The position numbers were made by a program, and so were the translations under genes. The notes under the pieces are model-generated. The model ran no database searches and was not told the DNA's origin. It saw only the letters and a program-made list of their open reading frames with translations. A stretch of 64,000 nucleotides of DNA from Sanguibacter antarcticus (GTDB lineage Bacteria > Actinomycetota > Actinomycetes > Actinomycetales > Cellulomonadaceae): contig NZ_PDJG01000001.1 in NCBI RefSeq assembly GCF_002564005.1, positions 2,604,001-2,668,000 of the forward strand, in the 5' to 3' direction. This document shows, piece by piece, positions 22,961 through 39,815 of the stretch (positions are counted from its first letter, which is position 1; each line of letters starts with the position of its first letter).

Positions 22961-22980
22961 CTAGATCATGAGTGTCTCGA

Positions 22981-24165
22981 TGTCTCTATTCTTGGGACAG
23001 GAGCTCTAGCTGTTGTAGGTCATGACGTTGTTGACACGCCGGGGAGTGTGGGCGTGAGGAAGGGGTAGGTCCCCGAGTGCAGGATGGAAGTACCTCTACA
23101 TCCGCCTGCGAGAAGGACCTACCCCTCATGACACACGCTAACGCCCCGTTGACCCCAGCCGGAAGACTGCGCGTTGTCCAGCGCTGCCAATCTCGTCCGA
23201 TTGCTCACGTCGCGGCCGAGGCTGGGGTTGCTCGTGCGACGGTGACGAAGTGGGTGCGCCGCTACGCCGAGCACGGCGAGCTGGCCTTGGTCGACGTCTC
23301 CAGCGCCCCGCGGTCTCAGCCGACCCGCACCGCGCAAGAGGTGGTGGAGCGGATCGAGGACCTGCGCCGGACCCACAAGTGGACCGCCCGTCAGATCCAC
23401 CTCGAACTGGTCCGCGAGGGCCACCAGATCTCCCCGGTCACGGTCTCGCTGTGGCTGCGCCGGTTGGGGATCTCCCGCCGCCGCGACATCGACCCGTCCG
23501 GCGCGACGAACCGAGTCGTCAGGAAGATCGTGGCCCGGTATCCCGGGCATATGGTCCACCTGGACGTGAAGAAGGTCGGGCGCATCCCTGACGGCGGCGG
23601 CTGGCGCACCCACGGGCGCGGCTCCGACCAAGCCAAAGCAGTCGAACGGGCCAAGACCAAGGGCTCCCGGGCCGGCTACATCTACCTGCACTCAGCCATC
23701 GACGGCTACTCCCGCCTCGCCTACACCGAAGCCCTGCCCAACGAGACCGCCGCAACCACGATCGCCTTCTGGGCCCGCGCGAGGGCGTTCTTCACCGCCC
23801 ACGGAATCACCCGGTTCACCCGCGTCGTGACCGACAACGGGTCGAACTACCGCGCCCGCGACTTCCACCGCACCATCGCGGGCACCGCCGCCCGCCACCA
23901 GCGCATCCGCCCCCACACGCCCAAGCACAACGGCAAGGTCGAACGTTACAACCGCACGCTCGCCGAAGAGCTCCTCTACGCCACCGAATGGACCTCAGAG
24001 ACACAGCGGGCCAACGCGATCACCGTCTGGAACATCCACTACAACTACCATCGACCCCATACTGCAATCGGTGACCGACCCCCAGCCTCACGCATGCCAG
24101 CACGTGTCACCAACGTCATGACACAGAACATCTAGCCTGCCAGGCCTGTCGCAAGAATCGGGACA
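22981..24165 (+). mobile_element. IS481-family insertion sequence
   Basis: 1185-bp element. Left end TGTCTCTATTCTTGGGACAG and the complement of the right end, TGTCCCGATTCTTGCGACAG, are imperfect inverted repeats; similarity continues inward to GTCATGACGTTG. It is flanked by a 4-bp duplication TCGA (22977-22980 and 24166-24169), though TCGA is itself palindromic and could belong to the ends. It carries one transposase gene that looks intact, so the element may still move. Confidence 0.85.
23128..24135 (+). CDS. IS481-family DDE transposase
   Basis: 335-aa transposase. The N-terminal helix-turn-helix is VAAEAGVARATVTKWVRRYA. The rve integrase core has HLDVKKVGRIPDGGG (first D), VVTDNGSNYRARDF (second D) and HTPKHNGKVERYNRTLAEEL (E), the complete DDE set. 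The C-terminus has WNIHYNYHRPHTAIGDRPPA. ATG 23128 follows AGAAGGA by about ten bases. It fills almost the whole element. No frameshift is seen. Confidence 0.93.
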   Translation: MTHANAPLTPAGRLRVVQRCQSRPIAHVAAEAGVARATVTKWVRRYAEHGELALVDVSSAPRSQPTRTAQEVVERIEDLRRTHKWTARQIHLELVREGHQISPVTVSLWLRRLGISRRRDIDPSGATNRVVRKIVARYPGHMVHLDVKKVGRIPDGGGWRTHGRGSDQAKAVERAKTKGSRAGYIYLHSAIDGYSRLAYTEALPNETAATTIAFWARARAFFTAHGITRFTRVVTDNGSNYRARDFHRTIAGTAARHQRIRPHTPKHNGKVERYNRTLAEELLYATEWTSETQRANAITVWNIHYNYHRPHTAIGDRPPASRMPARVTNVMTQNI

Positions 24166-24858
24166 TCGAGATACCTCGGCTTCGCGCCGTTCCACGGAGG
24201 GCGATCTGCTCTGCACTCCCTACAAGGCACGGTCAGATGTCACGCATCCGCGCCCCGCGCCGAACTGCGAGCAGCCGAGCCCGTCCAGCTCGAGCAAGCT
24301 GAACAAGTCGCCGCACGACTGCTGCGTGCGTCGGCATTACGCTGGTTGGTGTGTCATGACCAACTTGGCATTTCTCATTCGTTTTCGATGACAGCGCTCG
24401 CACCGAGCGGCGCTCATAAAGCAAGAGATTCCGAGAAGCACTTCCGGTCGAACCGGATCGCAATGACGATGTGACCGAACCTTCCCGCTCTCGGTACTTC
24501 TCAATGGCGGCCGCCGCCCGGATACCGTCCTCGTGCGCTCGCCGCATGTCGCACGCGGGTCGACGAGCGGGATACAGCGATGCCGTCCGAGTTCGAATCA
24601 CCGTTTGCCCTCCGCGAACCGAAACGCCCTGAACCCCGCTATCGCCCGCGGAGCCGAGGCGGAAAGCCTTTGCTCGACTCCCTCAGGTACCGCTCCGGCG
24701 AAGAGTTGACGATGACGCCGACGTGCGCGTGCTCGCCTTGGCTCAATACGGTGGTGCAGCAGGATGGTCGTCGTGCTGGGCCGCTCAGACCTGCAGCGAA
24801 CAACCTCTCGAAGCGAATCCAGCAGTCTGGCCTCGGGCTCCTGAGAAGAACTCGGCGC
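24166..24858. other. Gene-free debris between IS481 and drmB
   Basis: No convincing gene is seen on either strand in this 690-bp stretch, although the place after drmB is where drmC (PLD nuclease) stands in DISARM loci. Minus-strand frames at 24639-24902 and 24233-24601 show no HxK PLD motif. A run RAHEDGIRAAAAIEKYRERE near 24520 looks protein-like but is short. Likely the scar of a deletion. Confidence 0.5.
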
Positions 24859-26571
24859 TCACCCCGGAAAGAGTGCAGCTCCCGGAAACTCCTGGCTTCC
24901 AACTACGCAGACCCTGTCGAGGAAGACGTTCCGGTTCTCGCAGCTCGTCTCTGGCAGCAGGACGCATGCGTGGCAGGCCGCCAGGTTGAGGTTGTCGGCA
25001 CCAGACCCACGCGACTCCGCGCACACTGGGTCCGAGGAACACCACCGGCCGCGCTCGATCGCTGCCAGAAAGATCTCCTGGAAGAGTTCCTCCTGCGCCA
25101 GGGCAGACAGTCCCCCAAGGCTCCCGGCCGAGTCGGAGGATGCCGTGTAGATCAGGATCCCCGCTTGGCCGGGCGCCGTGTAGGTGCGTTCGCGCAACGA
25201 CGCAGCCGGATAGCCCGCATGCAGGCTCAGTTCGTCGAGCAGCATGTGCGAAAAGGTGTGCAGCGCAAGCGTGCGCGGCGAGACCGGCGACGCGGGCGGT
25301 CGATCGAAGTCGGCGTCCCGTCGTTCTTGGGCGGCGTTGATGGACCCCGCTCGCCTCGACGGCTCCGGCCGATCCTCCTCCCACTCCGCCACCAGTTCCT
25401 CACGAAGGCGTACGAATATGCCCTCGCCGTGCACCTCGATGGCAGGCAGCCATCCAGGAGTGCCTTCGCTGAGCGGGGCCAGCGGTCGCAGGTCGTCCGG
25501 AACGTGTGGAGTCACGCGAGAGAACCCCTCGAGGGCGCGCACTTCCCGGAGGCGTCCGACGGCCGAGACCTGTTCGACGAGGTCGGCGATGCCCGAGCCG
25601 ATTCGCTCCGGCTCACAGATGAACGTGTCCAGGGCGGAGCCCTGGCCAGTGCCAGTACACAATGCCGTGTACTCGTCAGCTCGTAGTTCCGCGTCGGTCG
25701 GCACGCTGCGACCCGCAAGACCACGCCGTTGTGCCATCACTGCCTGAACCGCCTGGGCAGTGACCCCGCGATGGTTCTCAACCATCGGGCCCAGCACATC
25801 CGCCAGTGCGGCATCTGCAATGTGCTCCAGCACGACCCAGTGCTTCTCGACGAATGAGGACGCTGCAGTGGACCACGGGGGGATCGAGATGGTCGAGCGC
25901 ATCGAGCCGAACCAGACGTTGGACGAGCCGCGCTGAAGGGTTCTCAGGGGACGGTCACACTCCGGGGAGTCCGTCTCGAGCCACGGCCGATGTCCGCTGC
26001 AGGACCTGATGCCCATGAGCGCTGCTTTACCGAACGAGCCGTTCAACGACTTGGGCTTCACGCCGCACGAGCAGCCGATGACGATGTCGGAGAGAGAGGA
26101 CGACCGCCCCCGGATCCGGAGCGACAGCTCGTGGGACTTGGCGTCGCGGCCATCCTCGTCGCGAGCGTGGACCCACTGCCAGTAGGGGAAGTCCTCGATG
26201 TGCCCGGCGTCGCAGCACGCCACGAAACGCGATGGAACCAGGCGGGTCCCCGGGCACCGCTTGCAGAACATCGTCTGCTGGTCCTGGAGCTTCTGGATCG
26301 CTCCGAGGCGATGGCAGTTGGGGCAGTAGTGCGTGAGGGGGAACCTCATCACTGGCATGTCCCCCGCGTCACGACCGACGGACGGCGTCCTGAAGTGGTG
26401 AACGCCGAGCGCCCGGGCAAGGCGCGGTTCATCGAGCTGAGGGGAGGTCCTGGGCCAGTAATCCGTGCCCATGACCATGAAGCTCTGGTCCACCGACGGA
26501 AAGAGGCTTCCGACCCCGTAGGTCGTGACGAGCTGGCTCTGGCGCGCTTCGCCGATCTTCTTAGCGGACAC
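24859..26571 (-). CDS. drmB: DISARM protein DrmB (DUF1998, zinc-binding)
   Basis: 570-aa protein. The N-terminus (RQSQLVTTYGVGSLFPSVDQ) is typical of DrmB. Zinc-type cysteines CPNC/CKRC lie at residues 84-98 and CDAGH follows at 115. The DUF1998 end carries LALHTFSHMLLDELSLHAGY, and near residue 525 CHACVLLPETSCENRNVFLD. DrmB works in a complex with the helicase DrmA to recognise and block incoming phage DNA. It starts at GTG 26571, overlapping the DrmA stop by 11 bases. The expected next gene, drmC, is not found downstream. Confidence 0.88.
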   Translation of the reverse strand: MSAKKIGEARQSQLVTTYGVGSLFPSVDQSFMVMGTDYWPRTSPQLDEPRLARALGVHHFRTPSVGRDAGDMPVMRFPLTHYCPNCHRLGAIQKLQDQQTMFCKRCPGTRLVPSRFVACCDAGHIEDFPYWQWVHARDEDGRDAKSHELSLRIRGRSSSLSDIVIGCSCGVKPKSLNGSFGKAALMGIRSCSGHRPWLETDSPECDRPLRTLQRGSSNVWFGSMRSTISIPPWSTAASSFVEKHWVVLEHIADAALADVLGPMVENHRGVTAQAVQAVMAQRRGLAGRSVPTDAELRADEYTALCTGTGQGSALDTFICEPERIGSGIADLVEQVSAVGRLREVRALEGFSRVTPHVPDDLRPLAPLSEGTPGWLPAIEVHGEGIFVRLREELVAEWEEDRPEPSRRAGSINAAQERRDADFDRPPASPVSPRTLALHTFSHMLLDELSLHAGYPAASLRERTYTAPGQAGILIYTASSDSAGSLGGLSALAQEELFQEIFLAAIERGRWCSSDPVCAESRGSGADNLNLAACHACVLLPETSCENRNVFLDRVCVVGSQEFPGAALFPG

Positions 26572-29500
26572 GGTTCTTCCTCCTTACTTGGAAGAGCGAG
26601 CTCGTGGCGTCGACGTTCCGCAGGCTCGTCAGGGTCGGCCAAGGTGGTTCCGAGACCGGGAACTGGTCGAGCGGGCTCTCGTGCCCGTCGACCCTGCTCC
26701 CCGCCGGGACCACGAGGGCGCCGGCGGGAGCGCGCCACGCGACGTAGTGATCGACGCGGTTGTCGTCCACCGCGTCGCGCCAGTACTCGACCAGAGCATC
26801 GAAGGCTTCGAGGACCCGCTCCGTCTCGCGGGGCGCGACCGCGACGACCCGTCGGTGGATGATCTCCCGGACCGTTTCGATCCCGGCGTCGCCCGCAACG
26901 GATGCCACGGCGTTGGCCCCCGCGGCTCGGGGTACAAGAAGCCGCACCAACGACACGAGCACGCCGTGCAGCCCTCGGTCCACCGCGCGCGGGGCGAAGG
27001 GGGTGGCCCCCGTCGCCTCGACCTGCCGATAGAGCGCCCGGTGGTAGGGAAGGAAGGTCTCGTAGTGCGAGAGATCTCGCGTCCGGGCCGAGTTGTAGAG
27101 CGTCACGACGAGCCCCGGATGCCGTCGGCCGACGCGGCTGGTTGCTTGGATGTACTCGGACGTCGTCTGTGGCTGCCCCATGACGACCATGAGGCCGAGC
27201 CGGTCGACGTCCACACCTACCGAGATCATGTTGGTGGCCAGCATCACGTCCTGGCAGTCCTCCCCGCCAAGGGCCGTCGCAAGTTCCTCGAGGCGCCTCG
27301 GGACCTCGTCAGAGGGGACACGTGAAGTCAGCTCCTTCGGTTCCTTGATCTCTCGCACCTGCGACCCGAAGCGGCGAGCAATGACCGGGAGCCGTGCGGG
27401 GACGTCATCGATGGTCTGCATGAAGGCCGCTCCGAGAACACGGAGACTGTTGAAGTACCCGAGGAGCGTCCAATACGCGTCCTTGACCTCGTCGGGCGCG
27501 TCGAGGTCCTTGCCTGCCTGGAGCAGAGCGGCGTACGTGCGGACGAGCAACGTGGCGTGGCTGGTCCCTGGAGCCATAACACCGACGTACTGGCGCGACG
27601 GCAGTTCCTCGGCCGGCGCTTGCACGGCAAAGAAGCTGTCCCCTGGGTCGATGCCCGGGGGCGGAAACTGGCGAGACGCCCGGTCAAAAACCGCCTTCAC
27701 CTGTCCTTCGGCCCGCCGGATCGTCGCGGTCGAAGCCACCACCTTTGGGCGGGCGACGCCGGTGGACGCAGCGTCCACCGCGGTCTCGTACAGACCGACC
27801 AGGGTGCCGAGCGGACCGGAGATGAGGTGCAGCTCGTCCTGGACGATGAGGTCGGGTGGCGTGACCGCGCCGTCGGCGCCGAAGAGCCGCCGCGCCTCCT
27901 CGCGCCAGGCCATCATCGCGAACTTGTCGACCGTTCCGATGAGCAGCGAAGGACGCTGCTCGTACACGTCGGCATCAACGAGCAGGACCGGCAGACCTTC
28001 CCTGAACTCGCAGGTCGCTTCCGGGCAGCGCACGACCAGGCGCTCCGGCCGCCTCTCGACGCTGTAAGCCGACACCGGCAGGCGGGCGCCGCACCACGGG
28101 CACCTGAGGAGCTGCTGAGGGTTGCCCGAGGCCCCTGGGGACTGCTGGTTCTCGAGCGCCCGCAGGGCCGTACGGGCTTGGTCGTGGGTGTTGGGCGTTG
28201 CCGACTGTCCGACCCAGAGCCCGACCGTGACGGGAGCTGCCGATGGCAGGTGCCTTCGTCTCCATGACTCGAGCGCGCAGACGAGGCCTGCCGCGCGTTC
28301 GAACTGCTGCAGCGTCAGGAGCCGCAGTGTGTAGCGCATGATCACGCCGACGCCACCTCCGTCGCCCGTGGCGCCGCGCAGCCGCCGCAGCACGAGAGTG
28401 AAGGCGATGAGGCCCAGATACGCCTCGGTCTTGCCACCGCCGGTGGGGAACCAGAGAAGGTCGGCGATCTCCCTTTCGTCAGATTGGGGGTCGGCCAACC
28501 CATCGAGATTGAGCAACACGAACGCTATCTGGAACGGGCGCCACTGCTGCTCGACGTCCGAGGGCTCGGGAGCCTGGGAGCGGATCATCTCCTGGCGTGC
28601 ACGCTGCTCCTGCATGACCTCGTTCATCACCCGGAACGCCTGCGCCGCCTGTGGATCACGGTCGAGTACAGCGATGCCGCCGCGAATCCTCTCCGCCGCG
28701 GCACGGGCGGCGACGAGGTGGTCCTCCGCGGTGCCGCGGACGCCCTCCGCCAGATCGCCCAGGAGGCCCTCCTGGTCCGAGATCCACTTCTCGTACTCTT
28801 CGGCCAGTGCTATGAGCACGCCACGATCGTCGGTGCCAGCGAGCGTCGACATCCCAAAGCGCCCGCTGAGTTCCTTACGTTCCGCGCGGGAGACGAGAAC
28901 GTCTTGGCTTGGCAAAAAAGTGGTCTCGAGGCGGCGCGTAGGCACTGTGTCCCAGGTGGCGGCGCACCCGTGGCCCGCCGCGATACTCACGGCCTCGCGG
29001 TACAACAGTTCCGAGCTCGCCTCGTCCGTGCCTCGGGCGGATCGGGCGCCGGACGGGCGCTCGCTGAAGGTGCCCTCCACAGTTTCCACCGCGATGACCG
29101 GGCGGAACCAACAGAACTCGTCGGAACCGTTCGGTGTCTCACGCCGGAATGTGTTGACCAGGGCGATGGTGATCGCCGCTGTCCCGTCCACCGGGGGCCG
29201 AACCACGATCCGCAGATCGAGTCCCTCCACGATCGGGATCGGTTCGCGTTGACGGGCGGTGGTAGGGACCGTGATCTCGAAGGTCAGGCCTTCGACGATG
29301 CTCCAGATCTTCGGCCTCTTGCTGACTACACGCTCCACCACGCGCGCGTCGTCCTCGGCGTCACCATCGGTCGGGCCCTCGAGCGTCTCGTCGGCGAGCT
29401 GTCCATCAATCTGCGGGACGTACCGATCGGCGCGGACCGAGACCGTGATCTGCGACGTCACGACAGGATCCACGGCGAACGTCAGGCCCATGGACGAAGG

Positions 29501-29746
29501 CCGACGCATGTGCGACAGACTCACGCCGGGGTCGTATTCCGAGTCCGCCTGCGTGCCCGTCTCAATATCAGGCCGGTCCGTGACGTCCTCGACAGGATCC
29601 TCGCTCGGCGGATGCAGGATTCCCACCACAAAGCGGTCTAGGGGTGGCTCGTCAAGGCGCACGTCCTCCGAGGACCCCATCAGATCCCGTGCCAGAGCGC
29701 GCACCATCGCATCGCGGGCCTCGTACCAAGGGCTTAGGTCGTTCAT
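26561..29746 (-). CDS. drmA: DISARM helicase DrmA
   Basis: 1061-aa SF2-type helicase. From ATG 29746 the core has Walker A LLWFPTGGGKTEAYLG (about 430-445), a zinc pair CPWC/CPEATC (549-579), the motif II variant IVQDELHLISG (about 636), motif III VVASTATIRRAEG (about 672), and motifs V-VI NMISVGVDVDRLGL and SRVGRRHPGLVV (840-877). The GGGKTEAYLG and QDELHL forms are characteristic of DrmA. The long N-terminus has no other known domain. ATGA overlap with the upstream UvrD-like gene and 11-base overlap with drmB show a coupled operon. DrmA with DrmB binds DNA and senses unmodified phage DNA. Confidence 0.92.
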   Translation of the reverse strand: MNDLSPWYEARDAMVRALARDLMGSSEDVRLDEPPLDRFVVGILHPPSEDPVEDVTDRPDIETGTQADSEYDPGVSLSHMRRPSSMGLTFAVDPVVTSQITVSVRADRYVPQIDGQLADETLEGPTDGDAEDDARVVERVVSKRPKIWSIVEGLTFEITVPTTARQREPIPIVEGLDLRIVVRPPVDGTAAITIALVNTFRRETPNGSDEFCWFRPVIAVETVEGTFSERPSGARSARGTDEASSELLYREAVSIAAGHGCAATWDTVPTRRLETTFLPSQDVLVSRAERKELSGRFGMSTLAGTDDRGVLIALAEEYEKWISDQEGLLGDLAEGVRGTAEDHLVAARAAAERIRGGIAVLDRDPQAAQAFRVMNEVMQEQRARQEMIRSQAPEPSDVEQQWRPFQIAFVLLNLDGLADPQSDEREIADLLWFPTGGGKTEAYLGLIAFTLVLRRLRGATGDGGGVGVIMRYTLRLLTLQQFERAAGLVCALESWRRRHLPSAAPVTVGLWVGQSATPNTHDQARTALRALENQQSPGASGNPQQLLRCPWCGARLPVSAYSVERRPERLVVRCPEATCEFREGLPVLLVDADVYEQRPSLLIGTVDKFAMMAWREEARRLFGADGAVTPPDLIVQDELHLISGPLGTLVGLYETAVDAASTGVARPKVVASTATIRRAEGQVKAVFDRASRQFPPPGIDPGDSFFAVQAPAEELPSRQYVGVMAPGTSHATLLVRTYAALLQAGKDLDAPDEVKDAYWTLLGYFNSLRVLGAAFMQTIDDVPARLPVIARRFGSQVREIKEPKELTSRVPSDEVPRRLEELATALGGEDCQDVMLATNMISVGVDVDRLGLMVVMGQPQTTSEYIQATSRVGRRHPGLVVTLYNSARTRDLSHYETFLPYHRALYRQVEATGATPFAPRAVDRGLHGVLVSLVRLLVPRAAGANAVASVAGDAGIETVREIIHRRVVAVAPRETERVLEAFDALVEYWRDAVDDNRVDHYVAWRAPAGALVVPAGSRVDGHESPLDQFPVSEPPWPTLTSLRNVDATSSLFQVRRKNRVR

Positions 29747-31491
29747 TCCTCTGCCTTCCATTCGCGGCATGCGAATCCCACCGGTCGCACGCCCAGCCAC
29801 AGCCCATAGCGACCGATGCCGCCGGGAAGATCTTCTGTCGGTTCACCTCCGACAGTCTCGATGCACTCCACATGCACGTCCTTGAGGTCAAGGTCGATAC
29901 GACCCCACAGAAGACGCTTCGCATCCTGCCCGAACCCCTCCGTCGTGCGGCCCACCGTGACGCCCTCGTGTTGCAGCCGCCAGTACGGGACTTCACCGCT
30001 CGTCCAGTCGTACTCAAGGTGCAGCCGGTCACCCGTCGTCACGGCCGTTCGCAGATGGTGTTGGACCGCCAGCAAGTCGTCGTCGCCCGGCGGACGGCTG
30101 CGGTCGACGTCGTCACCGGAGATCTCCAGGGCCTTGACCCTGTTCTTCTTCACATAGCTCCGCAGCCAGCGGCGCGACTTATGGTCTCGATGAAGAATGT
30201 GAGGATAACGGTTCCGCTCGATCCGGCTGAGGCGGAACCGTGCGCGCGTCAGCCCGACGTAGATGATCCGAGTCACCTCGGCAGGCTCGCGATCACCGTC
30301 GACCGGCGGGGGATACTGGGCCATCACGACCGTATCGAACTCAAGGCCCTTCGCCCGATGAATTGTCGAGACCACAGGCACATCAGGATCGGAACCGACG
30401 AGCTCTGCAGGAATAGCCGCCCGCTGCAGCCGACGAGAGATGTCCCTCGTGGCGAGCGACCGAGAGCCGGCCGGCAACCAGGACCGGAGTCCACGCCACC
30501 GGTCGGTCGCCAACGCACGATCGCCGACTGAGGCAAGCAGATCCTCGAACGACCAGTTCGGCCGATCAGCCAGGACCTCAGCGACCCATCGGTCCACCAC
30601 CGGTGCGGTTGCGGGGCGCCGAACGATTGCGGGGACCCTCGCGCGCCACAGGTCCTGCACCTCCATCAGCGCCTCCCCGTTGGTCGCGGTCAGGATGGCG
30701 AACGTCCGCCCGTGCGAGCGCGCGAGAGCGGCCAGGTCCTCGTCGACGATCGGGGTCAGCTCACTGACGAAGTCGGCCACCTCATCGACCGCGTTCTCGA
30801 GGCTCGAACCGGCGCCGTCACGCAGAGCCACCGCGGCACGGGCCTCCCGCGTCCCGGCGCGGTAGGAGCCTGTGAGATCCCGCCGCACGACGCCGGCGCC
30901 TGCGCCAAGTCGTGCGAGGACTTCCGCACTAGTGGTCGGGTGCTCAGGGGAGAGCTGAAAGTCGTAGATCGCCTGTGCAAGGTCACCGAGCAGGGTGAAG
31001 CCGGCGCCCTCCGGGAGCGACTCGATGAGGGCCTCCAGGAACTCGGCACGCAGACCCACGACATCCTGCACCTCGTCGACGACAAGGTGGGCAACATCGT
31101 CGACGGCGTCCCACGCACCAGCCCGGAGCGCCTGGATCGCACGTTCAATTCGCCGATCGAACACGCGGTAGCTGGTAATCTCCTCGCCGAACGCCTCACG
31201 AGTGACCTGCTGCGCCAGAGAGTCGAGCGTCCGGACGGCTGCAGATGCTTGGATGTCGCCCGCCTGGAGGCGGCGGTTCACGGCGTGAACCGCCGCCCGG
31301 GAGAAGCTGACGACGAGCAGCTCGAACTCGGGATCGAGCCCCTCGTCCTGCACGAGCCGAGCTACCAGCCCGGAGACGACCTCCGTCTTGCCCGACCCCG
31401 GACCGGAGACGACGACCTGCCGCGACGACGGCTCGATCTCGACCGCCGCTCGCTGGCTCGCGTCCAGTTCCGGCGAACTCACTGCTTCCAC
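29743..31491 (-). CDS. UvrD/Rep-like SF1 helicase within the DISARM-like operon
   Basis: 582-aa helicase with Walker A VVSGPGSGKTEVV (about residue 27), a DEVQD Walker B in LVVDEVQDVVGLR, GDLAQAIYDF (motif III), STIHRAKGLEFDTVVM (motif V) and YVGLTRARFRLSR (motif VI). It is shorter than UvrD (about 720 aa), mainly in the 1B/2B insertions. A C-terminal 100-residue extension contains WRLQHEGVTVGRTTEGFG. ATG 31491 overlaps the upstream stop by 13 bases and its TGA overlaps the drmA ATG. UvrD-like genes are not part of classical DISARM, so this is an accessory or replacement component. Target unknown. Confidence 0.88.
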   Translation of the reverse strand: MEAVSSPELDASQRAAVEIEPSSRQVVVSGPGSGKTEVVSGLVARLVQDEGLDPEFELLVVSFSRAAVHAVNRRLQAGDIQASAAVRTLDSLAQQVTREAFGEEITSYRVFDRRIERAIQALRAGAWDAVDDVAHLVVDEVQDVVGLRAEFLEALIESLPEGAGFTLLGDLAQAIYDFQLSPEHPTTSAEVLARLGAGAGVVRRDLTGSYRAGTREARAAVALRDGAGSSLENAVDEVADFVSELTPIVDEDLAALARSHGRTFAILTATNGEALMEVQDLWRARVPAIVRRPATAPVVDRWVAEVLADRPNWSFEDLLASVGDRALATDRWRGLRSWLPAGSRSLATRDISRRLQRAAIPAELVGSDPDVPVVSTIHRAKGLEFDTVVMAQYPPPVDGDREPAEVTRIIYVGLTRARFRLSRIERNRYPHILHRDHKSRRWLRSYVKKNRVKALEISGDDVDRSRPPGDDDLLAVQHHLRTAVTTGDRLHLEYDWTSGEVPYWRLQHEGVTVGRTTEGFGQDAKRLLWGRIDLDLKDVHVECIETVGGEPTEDLPGGIGRYGLWLGVRPVGFACREWKAEE

Positions 31492-34400
31492 AACCGCTCG
31501 AAGCCGCGGAAGGCCAGCTGATCGCCGTACTTGCTGAGGTTGTCCTCGACATCGACGATCAGGACTTCTTCCGAACCCCCGTTGAGCTTTCCGCGCAGCC
31601 CCCGGCCCACCATCTGCTGATACACGTTGGGACTGAAGGTCGGCCGGCAGACGTAGACCGCCTTGACCGCGGGCGCATCGAAGCCCTGGGTGAGCACCTG
31701 GTAGTTGGTCAGGACACGAATACCACCCTTGCGGAATTGATCGATGTAGTGCCGACGCGCGGAGGATTCGGTGCCGCCCGAGATCGACACCGAAGGCGCC
31801 CCCCGATGCGAGAGCAGTGCTGCAATCGAGCGAGCGTTCTCGACGGACGGAGCGAACAGCAGAACCGGCCAGTCGTCCGGTAGGTCGAGGATTGACTGCA
31901 CGATGCGTTGGTTCCGGTCGTGATCGTCGCCGAGCGCCTGCTCACGACGTTGCGGGAACCGCCCCATCTGATCGATCTCCGCGAGCTCCTGATCCGTGAA
32001 GTCGACGGTCGCACCGTCGAGCCTGCGCTTCTCCACATTGGCCAGGACACCCATCTCCTGAAGCGTCCGGTACGGGTCGGGGCCCAGCACGCCTTCGTCG
32101 AGCAAGTTGCTGTCATAGCGCTTGACCAGGCGCTTCGTCTCCTCGTCCGACGTCCCTCGGAACGGCGTCGCGGTGAGCCCGATGAGGGGACGCGCCTTCT
32201 CCGCCTGCGCGCCACGACCAAGCCACTCGAAGATCGCCGTGTACCGCGGGCTGACGGACGTGTGCGCCTCGTCCACGATCACAACGGTCGGCTCCCGGAG
32301 CCAGGCGTAATCCTCCGATCGCGACGAGATGATCGAGTCGAGCTTGGCGTCGGTGGCGACGACGACCTGGGTTCCGTCGGGCTCTTCCTCGATCTCGTTC
32401 GATCCCCACAGCCGCCCGAGGATCAGCTGGCCGGCCGGGCCCAGCGAGCGCCAGACGTAGGTCCAGCTCTCGGCCGCCTGCTCGCAGAGTTCGTCCGACT
32501 GAGCGATCCAGACGATCGGACCCGTCAACCGGCCCCGGGCGATCTCCTCGACGAGCGCCTGGACCGTCACTCGAGTCTTCCCGGCCCCCGTGGGCAGCGA
32601 GACGATGCCGCGCTGACGTCCGATCCCGACGAGAAGCGCCCTGATTTTCTCGGTGACGCGGATCTGGTAGTCATGCAGTGGCGACAGCTCGATCGGGCCA
32701 TCGACGACTTCACGCGCTGGCGACTGCCGCGACGGAAAGCCTGCCCACTCAGCTGGCAAGCTAAGATCCGCGACCCACTTGCGTTCTTTCTGCCGCCCGG
32801 AGAACTCCCGGGGCGGCTCGAGCCCACGCTCGTTGAGCACCGACCGGAGCGACTTGAGGACACCGACACCGTGCACCGAGAGCACCAGCCGGGCCAGGTC
32901 CAAGTCTCCGATCTCCCCGTCGCGTGAGAGCAGCTCGAATGCCTGACGCGGCACCTGAGCACGCAGGCTATCCACACCGACGGCCGCAACGAGACCGGCC
33001 TCAGCACTGACCCTCGCCGCTTTTCGAACGTCGTTCTTGAGCTGAGACGCCCGCTGGTCCTCCATCGACTGCAGGACGCGATTTATTTCGGCCGACGTCA
33101 GACCCAGTTTCAGGGCGTCGGACACTTGAGTGAGCACCTTGGCGGGTTCAGTGGCCGTGACGAGAATCTGGCCCGGCTCGCGCCCGTACGGCAGGGTCCG
33201 CTCAACTTGTCCCTTCGGTGTGGCGACCAAGCGACCGATTCGGCTGCACAGCTGCAGGCGCAGGTCGAAATCGTCGGGCGTCATGGCCGGGTGGTTCTTC
33301 AGAGGTGGGAACTCGTCGGTCAGGAAGACTGACTCGCCGACACGCTCCGGGATGACCTCTTCGCACAGGAACTCCTTGCCGTCTCGCATCTCCCAGCTCT
33401 CGATGAAGAAGACGAGGTCCGCCTCGTCAACAAGCATCGCCGGAACCTGAGCCTCAAGCATCGCCTCGTACACCGAATCGGAACTCGTGACCCCGACGTT
33501 GACGGCGGGGACCCGCTCGGATCGCTGTCCCACCCGCACCACGAGGTCGGTGGCCGGGATCCGGCCGGGCAGGTACGTATAGAACTCGAACCTCAGCGGG
33601 TCGTCCGTCCATGCGTCGGCAAGCGTCTTGAGCCGCTGCCACTGCTCCGGAGTGAAATTGTCGGTGCTCTCCAGGACCGCCAGCCTCGCACAGACCTCTG
33701 TGGACAGGTCCAGCGCAACCGGGAAGAGATCCGGTCTCTGGTCCTCGCCCGGGATGAGCGCGTCCCGCGGTCGCATCGGTCCCATAGACGTGTCGATCAA
33801 CCCATGTTGACGAACCAGCCACACCTCGGGAGCCAATACCGAGATCGGTTTCGACCGACTGTCCGTGGCGCGAAGAACTCGCCAAGCTGGCATTGCACCC
33901 TTGTTCAGCAGGAGGCGCGACAGCTCGAGCCGACCTTCGTCGGACAGATCCGCGAAGAACCCAAGTGGCCACATAACCGGGCGCTCTTCGATCCGCAGGT
34001 CGACGGAGGTCGCTTCGCTCTCCATTTGTTGGCGGACGTGATCCATCATCGCATTGCGATATGTAGAAAGCCATGGCTCGGGAGCCGCTACGCCTCGCAA
34101 CTGCGGCTCGCTGACGGCGCCGAGCTCGCGCAGAAGCTCAAGATCCGTGGCATGGAACTGTGGGTCGATGAGCCTGCCAGCATCACGCCGAGCATGGGTG
34201 GGAATAACCGTGCCGCCGAGGAATGCCTCACTGAGGCCAACCCAATTACCGCGAGCTGTCCGTACCCGGACGAAATCAACAGCCCTCTTTCGCGTCCCGG
34301 TCTCGAGGACGTCGAACGCAACGTCCTTCGGCAGCTCGCGCGCCGCAGCCCAGACGCTGCCCCAAACATCCTTGCCCTCGCTCGCCTGGAGGACCAGCCC

Positions 34401-36122
34401 TTCGAGTTCCGCGCGCTTGTCTAGCACCGTCACGCCAAGCTCTGAGAGTGCATCGATGACGCCCGGAAGAGCGACGATCCTCGGGTCGACGAACACTCCA
34501 CTCGAGTCCTGAGGGCCCGAGCGGATGAAGACTCGGCCCTTGACGGCTTTGGCAAGGGCGCCATCCTCGAGCGGGATGATCCGGGCTGTCTTAGCCGAGT
34601 CGAGTACCTGCTGCTTCAACGGATTCCCTGGTGCGAGGCGCACCGACTCACGTTTGATCCGGGCCGAAAGCTTGATGGCGGCAGCGCATGCCTCGATATC
34701 GCCGGGATGTACGAGCGCCTCGAGCCAGTCCTTGACCGTGGCTGTGGAACCAGCCCTCGGATCAACGAGCCTACGCACCTTGAGGCGCCGTTCCGGGGTC
34801 GAGAACGCCTGCGGGTGAACCCATTCGTCCTTCGGCGCGCCTGGGGCCTGCGACCACTCACTGATCCATGTCGACTCTATGCCTTCCGGTGCGGAGTTCA
34901 GCTCGGATGCCTTGCGGAGCACCCCCCGTACGTCAGGCAGGCAAGCGATCGTGCGCAGGACGCGGAAGACAGGTTCGTTGATGGTGTCGTCCGCCCAGCC
35001 GCGGCCTTCACGTCCACGTGCAGGCAAGAGATCGAGTAGCGATGCCGGGTCATCGTCTCTCACGAATAGTCGCACATTGGACGCAAGCAGTTGAGGAAAG
35101 ACGTCTTCAAGGATGCCCTCATTGAAGGCACCCTGAAGAAGGTTTGCTCGGTCGTCGCTCAAACGCCATGGCGCGTTGATCAACCCCGCCATCGTGGTTC
35201 GAGCTGCAGTAGGGAAGTACGCCCAGAACTCGCCGATCTTCAATCGGTCCCTGCCTGCCAGTGGGACTGCCCAGTCGAGCCGCACGGACGAACGATCGGC
35301 CATGCGTCCGCCGTCGAGACGTGCGGCGGGGCCAGGTTTCCAGTTCGAAGAGAGGACTCTCCAAGTCGACTCGGCGGCTCCTTCCATGAGTGCAACGGTG
35401 CCGTCAGCTCGGGTCGTCGTCGAGATGTGGTGGTCGATACCGTCGTCGACCGTGAGTCGGACGGACTTCACATGTGGAGAGAAGAGCAGGAACTCTCCAC
35501 GGAAGCCGACAAGGTCGCGCAACAACGACCCGCGGGAAGTGAGGTCCGGCAGGACGATCACTGTACTCGCCCAGGACATCAGACCATCGAGGATCGGGTC
35601 CTCCATCGCGGCCCGTTGTGGGTCTACCGCTCGCGCAAGCCGCATCGTCGGGTATCTGAGAGCAGAGAAACCCGCATCGCTGATCGCCCGTTCGGCCCAC
35701 TCGCTCTCGAAGACCAAGGAGATCGAGCGGCTGAAGATGCGCGGCTCGGCGGTGACAGCCAGGACAGACTTGAACCCGATGCCAAAGCGACCGATCCGGT
35801 CGTCCGTCTTCCCCGAAAGATCGGAAGCCATCACCGCCTTGATCCCGGTCTCGTTAAAAGGCTCACCATCGTTGGCGACGTACAGCGTGTCGGCTGTGAG
35901 ACGTATTTCTATCCGACTACCGCCGAGACTCGCGGCGTCAACTGCATTTTGGAGCAGTTCGTGGAGCTGCCGATCGCGGTACCCACCCTCAGCGATCCGG
36001 CGCTCGTTGTTGGCGTCTTCCTCGATCCGCTTCGGATCGCGTCCGTACACTTCCAGACACGCCTGTGTCTGCTCTCTCACGACGCTCGCGAGGATTCCGT
36101 CCCCCGCCTCCCACGTGTTCAC
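31479..36122 (-). CDS. Giant GHKL-ATPase / SF2 helicase fusion
   Basis: 1547-aa protein. The N-terminal 250 residues are a sacsin/Hsp90-like GHKL ATPase: ELLQNAVDAA (N box, about 55), VANDGEPF (about 85) and GRFGIGFKS (about 111). About 900 residues without known domain follow. The last 430 are a DEAD/DEAH helicase: SLPTGAGKTRV (about 1170), VIVDEAHTSVS (about 1284), GLTATPFRG, and TQGFDAPAVKAVYV with QQMVGRGLRG (about 1504). GTG 36122 is chosen because GGAGCGG lies seven bases upstream and the conserved region begins soon after; the frame is open further. It is first in the four-gene operon. It likely senses or remodels DNA-protein complexes; the exact role is unknown. Confidence 0.85.
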   Translation of the reverse strand: MNTWEAGDGILASVVREQTQACLEVYGRDPKRIEEDANNERRIAEGGYRDRQLHELLQNAVDAASLGGSRIEIRLTADTLYVANDGEPFNETGIKAVMASDLSGKTDDRIGRFGIGFKSVLAVTAEPRIFSRSISLVFESEWAERAISDAGFSALRYPTMRLARAVDPQRAAMEDPILDGLMSWASTVIVLPDLTSRGSLLRDLVGFRGEFLLFSPHVKSVRLTVDDGIDHHISTTTRADGTVALMEGAAESTWRVLSSNWKPGPAARLDGGRMADRSSVRLDWAVPLAGRDRLKIGEFWAYFPTAARTTMAGLINAPWRLSDDRANLLQGAFNEGILEDVFPQLLASNVRLFVRDDDPASLLDLLPARGREGRGWADDTINEPVFRVLRTIACLPDVRGVLRKASELNSAPEGIESTWISEWSQAPGAPKDEWVHPQAFSTPERRLKVRRLVDPRAGSTATVKDWLEALVHPGDIEACAAAIKLSARIKRESVRLAPGNPLKQQVLDSAKTARIIPLEDGALAKAVKGRVFIRSGPQDSSGVFVDPRIVALPGVIDALSELGVTVLDKRAELEGLVLQASEGKDVWGSVWAAARELPKDVAFDVLETGTRKRAVDFVRVRTARGNWVGLSEAFLGGTVIPTHARRDAGRLIDPQFHATDLELLRELGAVSEPQLRGVAAPEPWLSTYRNAMMDHVRQQMESEATSVDLRIEERPVMWPLGFFADLSDEGRLELSRLLLNKGAMPAWRVLRATDSRSKPISVLAPEVWLVRQHGLIDTSMGPMRPRDALIPGEDQRPDLFPVALDLSTEVCARLAVLESTDNFTPEQWQRLKTLADAWTDDPLRFEFYTYLPGRIPATDLVVRVGQRSERVPAVNVGVTSSDSVYEAMLEAQVPAMLVDEADLVFFIESWEMRDGKEFLCEEVIPERVGESVFLTDEFPPLKNHPAMTPDDFDLRLQLCSRIGRLVATPKGQVERTLPYGREPGQILVTATEPAKVLTQVSDALKLGLTSAEINRVLQSMEDQRASQLKNDVRKAARVSAEAGLVAAVGVDSLRAQVPRQAFELLSRDGEIGDLDLARLVLSVHGVGVLKSLRSVLNERGLEPPREFSGRQKERKWVADLSLPAEWAGFPSRQSPAREVVDGPIELSPLHDYQIRVTEKIRALLVGIGRQRGIVSLPTGAGKTRVTVQALVEEIARGRLTGPIVWIAQSDELCEQAAESWTYVWRSLGPAGQLILGRLWGSNEIEEEPDGTQVVVATDAKLDSIISSRSEDYAWLREPTVVIVDEAHTSVSPRYTAIFEWLGRGAQAEKARPLIGLTATPFRGTSDEETKRLVKRYDSNLLDEGVLGPDPYRTLQEMGVLANVEKRRLDGATVDFTDQELAEIDQMGRFPQRREQALGDDHDRNQRIVQSILDLPDDWPVLLFAPSVENARSIAALLSHRGAPSVSISGGTESSARRHYIDQFRKGGIRVLTNYQVLTQGFDAPAVKAVYVCRPTFSPNVYQQMVGRGLRGKLNGGSEEVLIVDVEDNLSKYGDQLAFRGFERLWKQ

Positions 36123-36492
36123 TTCGCCGCTCCAATGCCCACGTGCGCAGAACCGAGGAGGCGTGGAGCCCACCGCAGGTGAGGCGTGGACGGGTGACCG
36201 TAGCGGATCGACTTCCCCCGAGCGGACCCGCGGGTGATGTCCTCCCGAGGGAGCGAATCCTCGGTGAGCTTGCGACGGGGAATCGCTGGAGGGTCGATCG
36301 ATGCTGCCGACGGATCTAGGACATTCATGAACGCGCTCCAACTCGCGAAGGCCGGCCTGATGAGCGTCGGAGCTTTCCGCGAACGGGCTGACGCCTTGAG
36401 TGTCGCTGTCGTCCACAGGTGCACCGGCCCGGACCGAACGGGTAGTTGCATGGTAGCGGCGCGGCCTCACCCTTTGTGGGCACCTGACCAGG

Positions 36493-36924
36493 TCAGCGGG
36501 TGAATTCAGCGCGTCGTGTGAGCCACGCGTCCGTGACCTCGACGGCAGTGCTCGTCATATTTTTGTGCGCCCAGAACCACAGCACGGTCCACTGCAGAGT
36601 GTGGAGGTGTGCATCGGTGTCGTGGTCACGAGCGACGTCCTTCGTCAGCTTCTCCTGCCTCCACGCTCCGTTATTGACCGGGGTCGTGCCATGAAGAGCG
36701 CACGAGTGCTAGAAGCAACCGTCCACGAAGACGGCAATGCGGGCGCGAGTCATCGGACGTCGGCTCGTCGTCACGCCATTCCCGGGAGCGGTGCGTCAAC
36801 TCAGTAGCGGAGCCCGAGCCGGTGGAACTCACGGCGCGGGAGCGGTTCCGGCACTGCATCCCGTCCACGCTGCCGCGCCATCCGGGCAGACGTCACCCCC
36901 GCGACTAAGTCCGTCGGAGGCTTC
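36493..36924 (-). pseudogene. vsr: Decayed vsr (very-short-patch repair endonuclease)
   Basis: Translation across frames shows Vsr pieces in order. TSARMARQRGRDAVPEPLPR and FHRLGLRY end at a TGA, then VDAPLPG, RRADV, ARIAVFVDGCF, a TAG where Vsr has Trp (FWH), HSCALHGTTP, WRQEKLTKDVARDHDTDAHL and WTVLWFWAHKN complete the set. At least two frameshifts and two stops make it inactive. Intact Vsr repairs T:G mismatches that arise when 5-methylcytosine made by its partner methylase deaminates, and a C5 methylase gene lies just beside it, divergently. Confidence 0.8.
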
Positions 36925-36975
36925 GCCCGCGTGCCAGTAGGCCGACGTGCCACCAGCCGGCTATCCTCATGTACT

Positions 36976-38166
36976 GTGACCATCCCGCGAGTGTCTACCC
37001 ACGACGTGCCACGCGTCCGACGCTCGCGGGCCGCGATCCGCACGCTCGATCTCTTCGCAGGCGCAGGGGGGCTGACGACCGGGCTGCGAACAGCGTCCAA
37101 GCGATTCCGGCCGGTCACGGCCGTTGAATGGGACGTCGCGGCAGCAGGTACATACGCTCTCAACCACGGGGGTGCCCTCGTCGAGGGTGCACTGAGCAGC
37201 GACATTGTCTACGCGGGGGGCATCGCCGACTGGCTGGAGCTAGGCGAAGTGCCATCGGTGGACCTCGTCGTCGGCGGGCCTCCCTGCCAAGGTTTCTCTA
37301 CGCTCGGAAAGCGCGATGTGGACGACGCACGCAACCTCATGTGGCACGAGTACGCCAAGACCGTAAACAAGGCTGAGCCGAAGTACTTCGTCCTCGAGAA
37401 CGTCCCGGCCTTCCTCAAGTCACCCCAATACGAAGTATTTCTGTCCGAGCTGGAGCCAGGCGGTCTCCTCGAGGACTACAGCTTCGAGGCACGCGTGCTC
37501 AACTCTGCGGACTACGGCGCGGCACAGGCTCGTAAGCGGGTCGTCGTGATGGGGCACCACAAGGACGTGATTGCACCGGGATTTCCTGAGATGACGCACG
37601 CTGAGCACCGGACTGTAGGGGATGCATTGAGCGGCGTGCCCGCCGAGGTTACGGCCACGGGACTCGCAGGCGAGGTCGTCACCTTCGCGGGCAGAGAGCT
37701 CCGGGGACCTTACTCATCGCGCGAACTCCATGTCGGCCGCAACTATGAGCAGATCTCCCGTGATCGTTTCCCACACATCAAGTACGGGGGCAATCGATTC
37801 AATCTCCCGGACCACTTGAAATCCCCTTGCTGGCTCAAGCACACATCAGGATCGGGCGACGTCATGGGCCGGTTGCGGTGGGAAAAGCCCTCGGTGACGA
37901 TCCGCACCGAGTTCTTCAAGCCGGAGAAGGGGCGTTACCTGCACCCGGAGGAGCATCGCGTCATCACGCACTACGAGGCGGCGCTCATCCAGGGGTTTCC
38001 GAGCGACTATCAGTGGCTCGGTTCCTGGGCCGACATCGCCCGGCAGATCGGGAACGCGGTCCCAATCGCTCTGGGAGCGGCGATCGGACGTCGCTTGAAG
38101 AATGCACTGGACTCGACCAACGAGGCTCCGTCGGAGGCCGACGCACCTGCTCCAGTTCTCCAATGA
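36976..38166 (+). CDS. drmMII: C5-cytosine DNA methyltransferase (DrmMII-type)
   Basis: 396-aa m5C methylase. Motif I DLFAGAGGLTTGL (about 22), motif IV GGPPCQGFSTLGK with the catalytic Cys (about 104), motif VI ENVPAF (about 141), motif VIII QARKRVVVMG (about 184) and motif X ARQIGNAVPIALG (about 357) are all present, so it should be active. GTG 36976 is a likely start; an in-frame GTG at 36931 cannot be excluded. It is divergent from the helicase operon and stands with a dead vsr. In class 2 DISARM a C5 methylase marks host DNA; here it has the same role by context. The recognition sequence is unknown. Confidence 0.88.
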   Translation: MTIPRVSTHDVPRVRRSRAAIRTLDLFAGAGGLTTGLRTASKRFRPVTAVEWDVAAAGTYALNHGGALVEGALSSDIVYAGGIADWLELGEVPSVDLVVGGPPCQGFSTLGKRDVDDARNLMWHEYAKTVNKAEPKYFVLENVPAFLKSPQYEVFLSELEPGGLLEDYSFEARVLNSADYGAAQARKRVVVMGHHKDVIAPGFPEMTHAEHRTVGDALSGVPAEVTATGLAGEVVTFAGRELRGPYSSRELHVGRNYEQISRDRFPHIKYGGNRFNLPDHLKSPCWLKHTSGSGDVMGRLRWEKPSVTIRTEFFKPEKGRYLHPEEHRVITHYEAALIQGFPSDYQWLGSWADIARQIGNAVPIALGAAIGRRLKNALDSTNEAPSEADAPAPVLQ

Positions 38167-38429
38167 GTGCGCTTCTGGTCTTCAGCCCGTCCCGTCCTGA
38201 AGTACCGGAGAAGATAGTCACCGTCGTAAGGGAGTTAGAAGCGCGCCGAGCTACGATTCGTCGAACGTTCTCTGACCGCGGAGGGATCACATGCCGAGAT
38301 GTCAGCCGAGTCGTCGATTCCACTCTGCACACTTCCGGCTTCGCGCCTGGCTCATACGCTACGTTCAGTCCAAACGAGTTGGTTGATTCTCCTCGTGCCC
38401 GAGCGATACAAGAACAGCTCGACGTATGA
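38163..38429 (+). CDS. 88-aa ORF coupled to the methyltransferase, possibly truncated
   Basis: ATG 38163 overlaps the methylase stop as ATGA. The product starts MSALLVFSPSRPEVPEKIVT and ends RAIQEQLDV. It has mixed secondary structure and normal amino-acid use, but no domain I know. The tight coupling suggests a functional partner such as a nuclease or specificity protein. The short length and the lower-GC, gene-free DNA that follows suggest that only the N-terminal part remains. Confidence 0.5.
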   Translation: MSALLVFSPSRPEVPEKIVTVVRELEARRATIRRTFSDRGGITCRDVSRVVDSTLHTSGFAPGSYATFSPNELVDSPRARAIQEQLDV

Positions 38430-38628: not shown

Positions 38629-38681
38629 CAAAGGTCCGAGTGACGTTGCGAGTACAGCTCCCGCCGCGGCGTGTCGACGCA

Positions 38682-39716
38682 TCACGCCAACATCTCCCGC
38701 ACCAACGGCACCACCCGGGTCCCGTACAGCTCGATGCTCGTCATGAGCTTGGAGTGCTCCATGGGCCCGTTGGCGTACTTGAAGTCGAACCGATCAAGCT
38801 CCAACGCCTTGACCACCCGCACGATCTTCCGGGCAACCGTCTCCGGCGACCCGATGAAGTACGCCCCCTCGGGCCCCACCTGCGCGCGGAACTGCCCCTC
38901 GCCCATCGCCCGCCCACCACGCTCGAGCGCGATCTTCGAGAAGTACTTGCCGATGAGCGGCCACGAGTCCTCTATCGCCTGCTCGTCCGTCTCGGCCACG
39001 TACCCCGGGGCGTGCACGCCGACCGGCAGCGGAGCCGTGCCGAGCTCGCCCAGCGCACGCCGGTACAGGTCGGTGAACTGCTTGAACGCGACCGGGTCGC
39101 CACCGATGATCGCGAGCATGAGCGGCAGGCCATACCCAGCAGCACGCAGGACGCTCTCCGGGCTGCCGCCCACCGCGATCCACGTCGTGAGCAGGCCACC
39201 GTCAACGTGCGGGAACACGTCCAGCCCGTCGAGCGGCTTGCGCACGCTCCCCGACCACGTGACCGGTTGCTGCTCACGGACCTTCATGAAGAGGTCCAGC
39301 TTCTCCTCGAAGAGCTCGGTGTACTGCGCGAGGTCGTACCCGAACAGCGGGAACGACTCGATGAACGACCCGCGCCCGAGGATCACCTCAGCGCGACCGC
39401 CCGAGATCGCGTCGATCGTCGCGAAGCGCTGGAACACGCGGACGGGGTCGTCGCTCGACAGGACCGTCACCGCAGACCCGACCCGGATGCGCTCCGTCGT
39501 CGCCGCGATCGCCGCCAAGACGACGTCCGGCGCCGAGACCGCATAGTCCGCGCGGTGGTGCTCGCCGATCCCGATGACGTCGAGCCCCACCTGGTCGGCG
39601 AGCACCCCCTCGGCGACGACGTTCCGGAGCACCTGCGCGTGCGTCAGGAGCTCACCGTCCGGGCCACGACTGACGTCGCCGAAGGTGTCGATGCCGAATT
39701 CCAGTGCGCTGCTCAT
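38682..39716 (-). CDS. LLM-class flavin-dependent oxidoreductase
   Basis: 344-aa luciferase-like monooxygenase fold (TIM barrel, F420 or FMN). Family marks include GEHHRADYAVSAPDVVLAAI near residue 51, SGGRAEVILGRGSFIESFPL near residue 105 and GGSPESVLRAAGYGLPLMLA near residue 180. ATG 39716 follows GGAGACGGAC. It is the first gene after the island on the core side and stands alone. The substrate cannot be told. Confidence 0.9.
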   Translation of the reverse strand: MSSALEFGIDTFGDVSRGPDGELLTHAQVLRNVVAEGVLADQVGLDVIGIGEHHRADYAVSAPDVVLAAIAATTERIRVGSAVTVLSSDDPVRVFQRFATIDAISGGRAEVILGRGSFIESFPLFGYDLAQYTELFEEKLDLFMKVREQQPVTWSGSVRKPLDGLDVFPHVDGGLLTTWIAVGGSPESVLRAAGYGLPLMLAIIGGDPVAFKQFTDLYRRALGELGTAPLPVGVHAPGYVAETDEQAIEDSWPLIGKYFSKIALERGGRAMGEGQFRAQVGPEGAYFIGSPETVARKIVRVVKALELDRFDFKYANGPMEHSKLMTSIELYGTRVVPLVREMLA

Positions 39717-39815
39717 GTCCGTCTCCTGATCGAGGGTGCCGAGGTCGAACCGACACCACCCACAGTAGTTGATGATTCAACCAATGCCTGCTCGACCAGT
39801 CGACGGCCCCGCCGA

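Follow-up and report, generated by a model that had tools for sequence, protein, structure and literature searches.

Gene content and organization of the locus

The DNA analyzed here, referred to throughout as the window, is a stretch of 64,000 nucleotides from Sanguibacter antarcticus (contig NZ_PDJG01000001.1, positions 2,604,001 to 2,668,000), and the subject of this work is a locus within it that is related to DISARM (defence island system associated with restriction-modification). Four consecutive genes on the minus strand (24859-36122) are transcribed in the order GHKL-ATPase/helicase fusion, UvrD-like helicase, DrmA and DrmB, and a C5 cytosine DNA methylase gene is divergent from this operon. 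The four-gene cassette is a real, conserved and DISARM-related unit that is apparently unnamed.

The fusion of a GHKL ATPase with a RadD-like superfamily 2 (SF2) helicase (31479..36122, minus strand; 1547 amino acids (aa)) was assigned a GTG start at 36122 based on its homologues (1529-1621 aa), which align from there, although the open reading frame (ORF) is open to 36470. The UvrD-like superfamily 1A (SF1A) helicase (29743..31491, minus strand) has 582 aa when counted from the first GTG and 579 aa when counted from the coupled GTG at 31482. DrmA, a YprA-family SF2 helicase (26561..29746, minus strand), has 1061 aa counted from the overlapping ATG, and its score of 974.3 bits against NCBIfam DISARM_DrmAS (cut-off 950) came from the longer, 1079-aa ORF; PADLOC models, Serratia DrmA (7s9v, 547.6 bits) and the tree described below agree with this assignment. 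DrmB, a DUF1998-type protein of 570 aa (24859..26571, minus strand), matched NCBIfam DrmB_fam (459.8 bits, cut-off 240), the MZB family PF09369 (38.8 bits) and PADLOC models. The methylase (36931..38166, plus strand) matched PF00145 (190 bits) and PADLOC models, and between it and the operon lies a degraded vsr remnant (36454..36786, minus strand) that was recognized by tblastn with Vsr proteins of related loci. These family matches bear out the gene set and gene coordinates of the original prediction, which had been made by a model from the sequence alone. Its end of the locus at 38429 has to be revised to 38166, where the methylase stops, since 38429 is the end of a 200-aa ORF (37827-38429) with non-coding codon-position GC and no family match. 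On the same grounds of codon-position GC and absence of matches, a 728-aa ORF at 38640-40826 was also ruled out as a gene.

The four genes of the operon overlap at every junction. The fusion and UvrD genes share 4 bp (GTGA), provided that UvrD begins at the coupled GTG at 31482, the UvrD and drmA genes share 4 bp (ATGA), and drmA and drmB share 11 bp, preceded by an AAGGAGG motif. In the 61 relatives with the same gene order (see below), the median gene spacings were -4/-4/-4 bp (starts inferred from hits), with spacings of no more than 20 bp at the three junctions in 58, 59 and 60 of the 61, respectively. As such, the translational coupling of the fusion and UvrD genes with drmA and drmB, which had been proposed for this one locus, is conserved and not a matter of chance.

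Conservation of the cassette among relatives

A profile made from 26 fusion proteins was searched against genome contigs and confirmed at least 472 relatives of the fusion; the locus counts given here refer to the best 80 of these, chosen by their likeness to the fusion and each taken with up to 10 kb per side. By label, their hosts are actinomycetes, except for L073, a metagenome-assembled genome (MAG) of Holophagae. In 75 of the 80 loci drmA adjoins the fusion on the same strand. The slot between the two is taken by UvrD in 61 loci, by a NERD-nuclease/superfamily 1 (SF1) helicase, with NERD named by Pfam, in the 10 loci of a sister clade (L052, L060, L066, L067, L074, L076, L079, L081, L082 and L085), and is empty in four, where the fusion lies directly against drmA (L070, L077, L078 and L084). 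A C5 methylase was found in the fetched flanks of 72 of the 80 loci. To offset the selection by likeness, 296 genomes were sampled evenly from the class; DrmA was present in 46 of them and 14 full-length fusions were found in 13, with 13 of the 14 lying within ~2 kb of a DrmA match. For the 14th, from the organism of L059, the contig ends 2.5 kb away, and neither gene in that interval matches UvrD, NERD-helicase or DrmA. The gene-order search across actinobacterial genomes that the original prediction had called for thus recovered the same arrangement repeatedly, and neither of the outcomes that it had named as fatal, namely a gene set restricted to this strain or extra genes usually located far from DISARM genes, was observed.

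The four cassette proteins also co-diverge. Across 62 UvrD-type loci, window included, the distance correlations of all six protein pairs were r 0.934-0.976, and those between the cassette proteins and the methylase were r 0.33-0.49 (n=20, a subset of loci with a best methylase above 100 bits and therefore picked by likeness to the window enzyme). Shared descent inflates all of these values, and for cassette and methylase alike none of 999 permutations was as high.

Relationship to DISARM

DISARM types I and II reportedly go back to Ofir 2018. The cassette shares with them homologues of DrmA and DrmB, both above the NCBIfam cut-offs, and a nearby methylase. It differs from them in the addition of the fusion and UvrD to the operon, in a DrmA that falls in its own clade, and in the parts that were not found: neither DrmD nor DrmMI is among the window genes, and no DrmC match was obtained in the window with PADLOC models or our own hidden Markov model (HMM). 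There was no DrmE match in the window either, although the sensitivity of that model is doubtful as it was also silent on an 801-aa neighbour in the class-2-like locus L142. In the available part of the PADLOC publication (PMC9252829), DISARM I comprises DrmA, B, C, D and MI and DISARM II comprises DrmA, B, C, E and MII. Our comparison with PADLOC covered these two published definitions and the protein models, and since both definitions require DrmC, the window locus belongs to neither type.

The DrmC HMM was built from the phospholipase D (PLD) proteins of 19 loci and run on six-frame ORFs of at least 60 aa at 1e-5. DrmC was detected in none of 89 fusion loci, window included (86 distinct loci, as L126 is the window and L136 and L138 duplicate L023 and L063), versus 20 of 40 DrmA loci without an adjacent fusion, so its absence is not the result of a recent loss. 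Where present, DrmC follows drmB, whereas UvrD lies upstream of drmA, and UvrD as a positional replacement of DrmC was thereby ruled out. The proposal that UvrD and the fusion stand in place of DrmC was thus right in that no DrmC was detected and both genes belong to the operon, but UvrD does not occupy DrmC's operon place, and a takeover of the biochemical role of DrmC by either protein would be conjecture. The DrmA of fusion cassettes is also ~220 aa shorter than the DrmA of DrmC-bearing loci (median 1073 vs 1292).

A comparison of DrmA trees, likewise suggested at the outset, set the window DrmA apart from the DrmC-bearing class-1 proteins. In a FastTree phylogeny of 103 rows, from which 20 Streptomyces loci and 13 class-sample fusion loci were left out, UvrD-type DrmAs formed one group of 45 rows (support 99), including three without an adjacent fusion (L080, L102 and L139), and the DrmC-bearing DrmAs formed a separate group of 21 rows, including L118 and L146 (support 99). 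The DrmAs of NERD-type and slotless fusion loci formed a group of 14 rows (support 100) elsewhere in the tree, beside fusion-less DrmAB loci. In the fusion tree (61 rows) the same 14 were on one side of a branch (support 100) and all UvrD-type fusions were on the other; L082 is labelled 'none' in both trees although its slot holds a NERD-helicase. L142, the only class-2-like reference, was placed in a different region of the tree and has a long branch. Such length is a feature of both class-2-like rows, and FastTree readily joins long branches. One of the fusion-less loci in the UvrD-type group, L139 (4810-21162 of a Tsukamurella plasmid), carries genes for a C5 methylase, a 464-aa protein, UvrD, DrmA, DrmB, a DrmD-like helicase and a 'subunit M'; the UvrD-DrmA-DrmB segment is thus present next to class-1-like genes, but the fusion is not.

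A class 2 DISARM of the ordinary kind, having lost its DrmC and lying next to unrelated genes, would account for the presence of DrmA, DrmB and a C5 methylase, and DrmC is described as dispensable and often missing in the available part of a study of Serratia DrmAB (PMC9142583). We nevertheless judge this explanation to be quite unlikely given that translational coupling places the extra genes in one operon with DrmAB in 61 of 80 loci, that their divergence tracks that of DrmAB (r 0.93-0.98), that DrmC was detected in none of the 89 fusion loci, that the only class-2-like reference falls elsewhere in the DrmA tree, and that the methylase is a poor DrmMII fit. On the last point, the window methylase scored 308 bits with the PADLOC DruM2 model, 256 with Type II MTase and 148.5 with DrmMII. 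The label 'class 2-type C5 methylase' in the original prediction is therefore loose: a C5 enzyme it is, but apparently not one that is specifically DrmMII-like.

Methylase, Vsr and other neighbouring genes

Neighbour counts were obtained with HMMs built from clusters of locus proteins in the 80 loci. The frequency of C5 methylases near the fusion may be set beside that of whole genomes of the class, 41 of 98 of which hold any C5 methylase (at a stricter cut, 1e-20); the window methylase is the sole PF00145 match at 1e-20 in its own genome. Vsr was found in 49 of the 80 loci, a NaeI-type restriction enzyme (identified by Pfam PF09126, 334 bits) in 10, and a DrmD-like helicase (named by PADLOC) in 7. 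The vsr remnant in the window gave tblastn scores of up to 82 bits, with 47.6% identity over 82 residues in its best stretch and two in-frame stops in 111 codons, and no intact Vsr was found in the window genome.

The NaeI and Vsr genes raise the question of whether the cassette is an accessory module of a C5 type II restriction-modification system, in which a restriction enzyme such as NaeI is the effector and the cassette helps, regulates or mends cuts. Favouring such a role is also L037 (Actinoplanes xinjiangensis), where a fusion without its own UvrD-DrmA-DrmB lies beside a NaeI/C5 methylase/Vsr set, on a contig that also carries a complete cassette (L056). However, 70 of the 80 loci gave no NaeI match, and the methylase diverges far less in step with the cassette than the cassette genes do among themselves. 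NaeI was not found in the window genome either, which is weak evidence as the control genomes gave no match. We therefore regard the accessory role as unlikely.

Other neighbours were more restricted. In Streptomyces-type loci (L020-L083, ~4.9-8.9 kb), a three-gene module encoding a helix-turn-helix (HTH) protein, a 330-aa protein and a DUF6339 protein adjoins the cassette, mostly divergently; two of its proteins have a weak likeness to PADLOC PDC-M33, and HMM matches were found in 36-37 of the 80 loci. In seven DrmAB loci (L087, L089, L090, L093, L094, L103 and L104), drmA stands beside a gene of a protein family that is represented in L089 by a protein with sigma-70 regions 2 and 4, and in the first five of these a small SF1 helicase is also present after drmB, an odd context for DrmAB. 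In the window itself, a 1217-aa protein with RNase_H_2 and SF1 helicase domains (43680-47333, plus strand) is encoded beyond the conserved flank gene and is possibly a second DNA-processing enzyme.

Origin and distribution

Among the genomes of 39 relatives, the fusion was found in one, namely the window genome itself, and in none of the five other genomes of the genus. The corresponding stretches of all five genus mates encode a luciferase-like protein that is 76-87% identical to the one right of the locus and contain no DNA matching the cassette; only this right flank is conserved, and the left-hand insertion boundary was not found. On the drmB side of the locus there is an IS481-family element (22972-24174), whose transposase has 352 aa and whose terminal inverted repeats are imperfect. 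The locus is patchily distributed and was probably acquired horizontally.

This distribution bears on the resemblance of the cassette to DNA repair, as a MutL-like clamp, UvrD, and Vsr by a Dcm-like methylase recall mismatch and very-short-patch repair, and the cassette might on that basis serve methylation-directed repair rather than defence. Given that the cassette is patchy and was not found in genus mates, that an intact cassette stands here beside a degraded vsr, and that DrmA and DrmB are members of defence families (PMC12458937, available part), we give the repair explanation little credence.

A role as a barrier to plasmids or transformation, rather than to phages, would use the same parts. 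It draws on the fact that the fusion was found on none of 72,556 plasmid records at a coverage of at least 80%, by which a plasmid-borne fusion was ruled out at that coverage. Plasmid records are skewed to other phyla, which counts against this barrier role, and it overlaps with the restriction function that we favour below; as a separate explanation we consider it very unlikely.

Features of the fusion and UvrD-like proteins

The fusion consists of an N-terminal GHKL (Bergerat-fold) ATPase of the MORC/Hsp90/sacsin type, a middle region of ~790 aa, and the C-terminal RadD-like SF2 helicase. Residues 27-354 have a clamp-type ATPase fold, and their alignment with Hsp90, GyrB, MutL and MORC extends through the transducer part of these proteins. 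No nuclease was listed for the middle region, but the match lists were filled by one ATPase domain. PADLOC TmtA models matched residues 128-523 of the 1663-aa ORF (~12-407 of the 1547-aa fusion) with up to 162 bits, a likeness limited to the N-terminal 400 residues of the fusion; the word TmtA does not occur in the 10 papers examined for it. Motor motifs are retained in the cassette proteins; the motif residues include Asn59 and Asp62 of the GHKL N-box and the Walker A lysines Lys1182 of the fusion and Lys35 of UvrD.

The UvrD-like protein has an SF1A fold that is structurally closest to UvrD/Rep/PcrA. It gave weak GajB matches in PADLOC (best 74.8 bits), which is the extent of its likeness to Gabija (GajAB); it differs in being structurally nearer to UvrD/Rep/PcrA and in that no GajA match was found among the window proteins scanned. 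The fold of its C-terminal domain (~450-582) was not recognized, and a sequence search returned no relative of solved structure. A motif, together with one of 36 members (E 0.0014), had hinted at a HIRAN domain at this C-terminus, but a profile comparison with six of seven fetched bacterial HIRAN proteins gave a probability of 1.4%, and the candidate was not supported.

Comparison with other systems

Restriction operons in which GHKL ATPases accompany SF2 helicases, C5 methylases and Vsr have been described (Iyer 2008, PMC2292703, available part), and MORC proper is marked there by a GhXhhpXXRhl motif in the S5 domain. Like these MORC/paraMORC operons, the window has a GHKL ATPase with an S5 transducer, an SF2 helicase (in cis) and a C5 methylase (divergent). 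The window locus differs in that SF2 is fused to GHKL, in that no intact restriction-fold nuclease gene adjoins, the degraded vsr being all that was found nearby, and in that no DrmA, DrmB or UvrD gene is named for those operons in the available part of that paper. Other GHKL genes are linked to C5 methylases in a 2021 paper (PMC8011034, available part).

ARMADA resembles the cassette in its YprA-family helicase, its several helicases, including GajB/UvrD-like ones in type II, and its Actinomycetota hosts, according to the portion of its description that was available (PMC12458937). According to the same portion, its genes include BrxHII-like and PglX-like ones, and its YprA typically carries a nuclease fused at the C-terminus. 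By contrast, the window DrmA and DrmB are separate genes, not a YprA fused to OB-CON-DUF1998 and nuclease, and neither BrxHII nor PglX was found in the window, for which family scans covered 20 ORFs; a DrmD-like gene lies near 7 of the 80 relatives. The words GHKL and sacsin are absent from the main text of the ARMADA paper. DISARM-like operons with ShdA (RmuC) homologues, as given in the available part of the Shield paper (PMC10270631), indicate that DISARM genes do acquire other partners, but the partner there is an RmuC-domain protein and not a GHKL/SF2 fusion or UvrD. The available parts of a HEPN paper (PMC3710099) and a BREX survey (PMC12839542) contained nothing on the gene set of the cassette. 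No published name for the gene set was found in the open-licence literature, to which the search was confined (subscription papers, supplements and newer catalogues lying outside it). This result and the requirement for DrmC in both PADLOC definitions agree with the original prediction, which knew of no described DISARM subtype with this set and suggested a possible new variant.

Proposed function and significance

We hold it to be rather probable, judging from the encoded proteins, that the cassette is a methylation-linked restriction system of the DISARM lineage, composed of a DrmAB engine, a clamp ATPase of the MORC/Hsp90/MutL type, a RadD-like motor and a UvrD motor, without DrmC. In such a system the C5 methylase would mark the host genome, and DrmAB would load on unmarked or end-containing foreign DNA and translocate, as others have proposed for Serratia DrmAB. 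The GHKL module could then act as an ATP-closed dimeric clamp, like MORC, MutL, GyrB and Hsp90 of the same fold, that detects or retains either the DNA or the DrmAB complex and passes it on to the RadD-like SF2 motor while the UvrD motor strips strands. The outcome would be an invader that is unwound and blocked in replication, and host nucleases would do the cutting. The sister lineage may have its own source of cleavage in the NERD nuclease that is fused to the SF1 helicase in place of UvrD.

Serratia DrmAB binds 5'-overhang DNA, depends on ATP hydrolysis and is kept in check by an autoinhibitory trigger loop at residues 176-232 (PMC9142583, available part). The window DrmA aligns to Serratia DrmA only from Serratia residue 224 on, its Walker A is ~170 residues nearer the N-terminus, and the initial 223 residues of the Serratia protein, where most of the trigger loop is located, have no alignable counterpart in it. 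Since the alignable trigger-loop region is missing, gating may have moved from DrmA to the clamp ATPase. A bolder form of the restriction reading, which we offer tentatively and consider doubtful, is that of a nuclease-free restriction akin to mismatch repair turned on invaders, in which the ATP clamp, of MORC/MutL type and with a motor of its own in the same protein, would, together with UvrD and DrmAB, strip DNA that does not carry host 5-methylcytosine (5mC), the clamp having taken over the class-1 trigger-loop gate. The cassette would then be a third, widespread DISARM branch that arose by the joining of DrmAB to a MORC/Mza-type restriction lineage, perhaps twice.

Several observations weigh against a methylation-linked restriction system of this descent. 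The defence role, by which the cassette may shield cells from foreign DNA, is read from descent and gene company, and the absence of the trigger loop is read from an alignment of sequences, which can miss a disordered loop. No nuclease was recognized in the window cassette, where the searches gave poor coverage of the UvrD C-terminus and of fusion residues 355-1140. Eight of the 80 loci show no C5 methylase, and the correlation of the methylase with the cassette, though lower, is still above chance. Five of the 80 fusions are without an adjacent drmA: in L049 the contig breaks off beyond UvrD and part of a DrmA-like gene, in L059 and L073 neither UvrD, NERD-helicase nor DrmA was seen in the remaining 2.5 and 1.6 kb, and L037 and L080 are without it despite flanking sequence at hand. 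The DrmA tree, which is unrooted, does not unite the two groups that carry the fusion, so the fusion either met DrmAB twice or was lost in between. The GC content of the locus (0.62-0.68) shows a slight dip and overlaps that of other window parts (0.63-0.73), and is therefore weak evidence of foreign origin.

The neighbouring genes were also no richer in PADLOC defence families than controls at a threshold of 1e-15, in a comparison of 66 proteins with 66. For this, 90 neighbour proteins were drawn randomly from 363 candidates, five of which were removed by eye as edge fragments or DrmA pieces; the last 19 were left out to equal the 66 controls, which came from the five genus-mate stretches. 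The neighbour set matched 31 PADLOC families (25 shown), one member each, and the control set matched six, of which mad3 had three members and SoFic two.

The way in which phage DNA is destroyed by DISARM is an open question, the means of degradation being termed a mystery in the available part of the Serratia study (PMC9142583), and the lineage described here bears on it. A lineage in which no DrmC was seen, and where a clamp ATPase and a further helicase are constant companions of DrmAB, is a natural test of which partners DrmAB needs. It connects the MORC-type GHKL ATPases, known from restriction systems since 2008, with the YprA helicases of DISARM, two lines that have been treated separately until now. 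Its frequency in actinobacteria is also high enough for catalogues with DrmC-requiring DISARM definitions to miss it on some scale.

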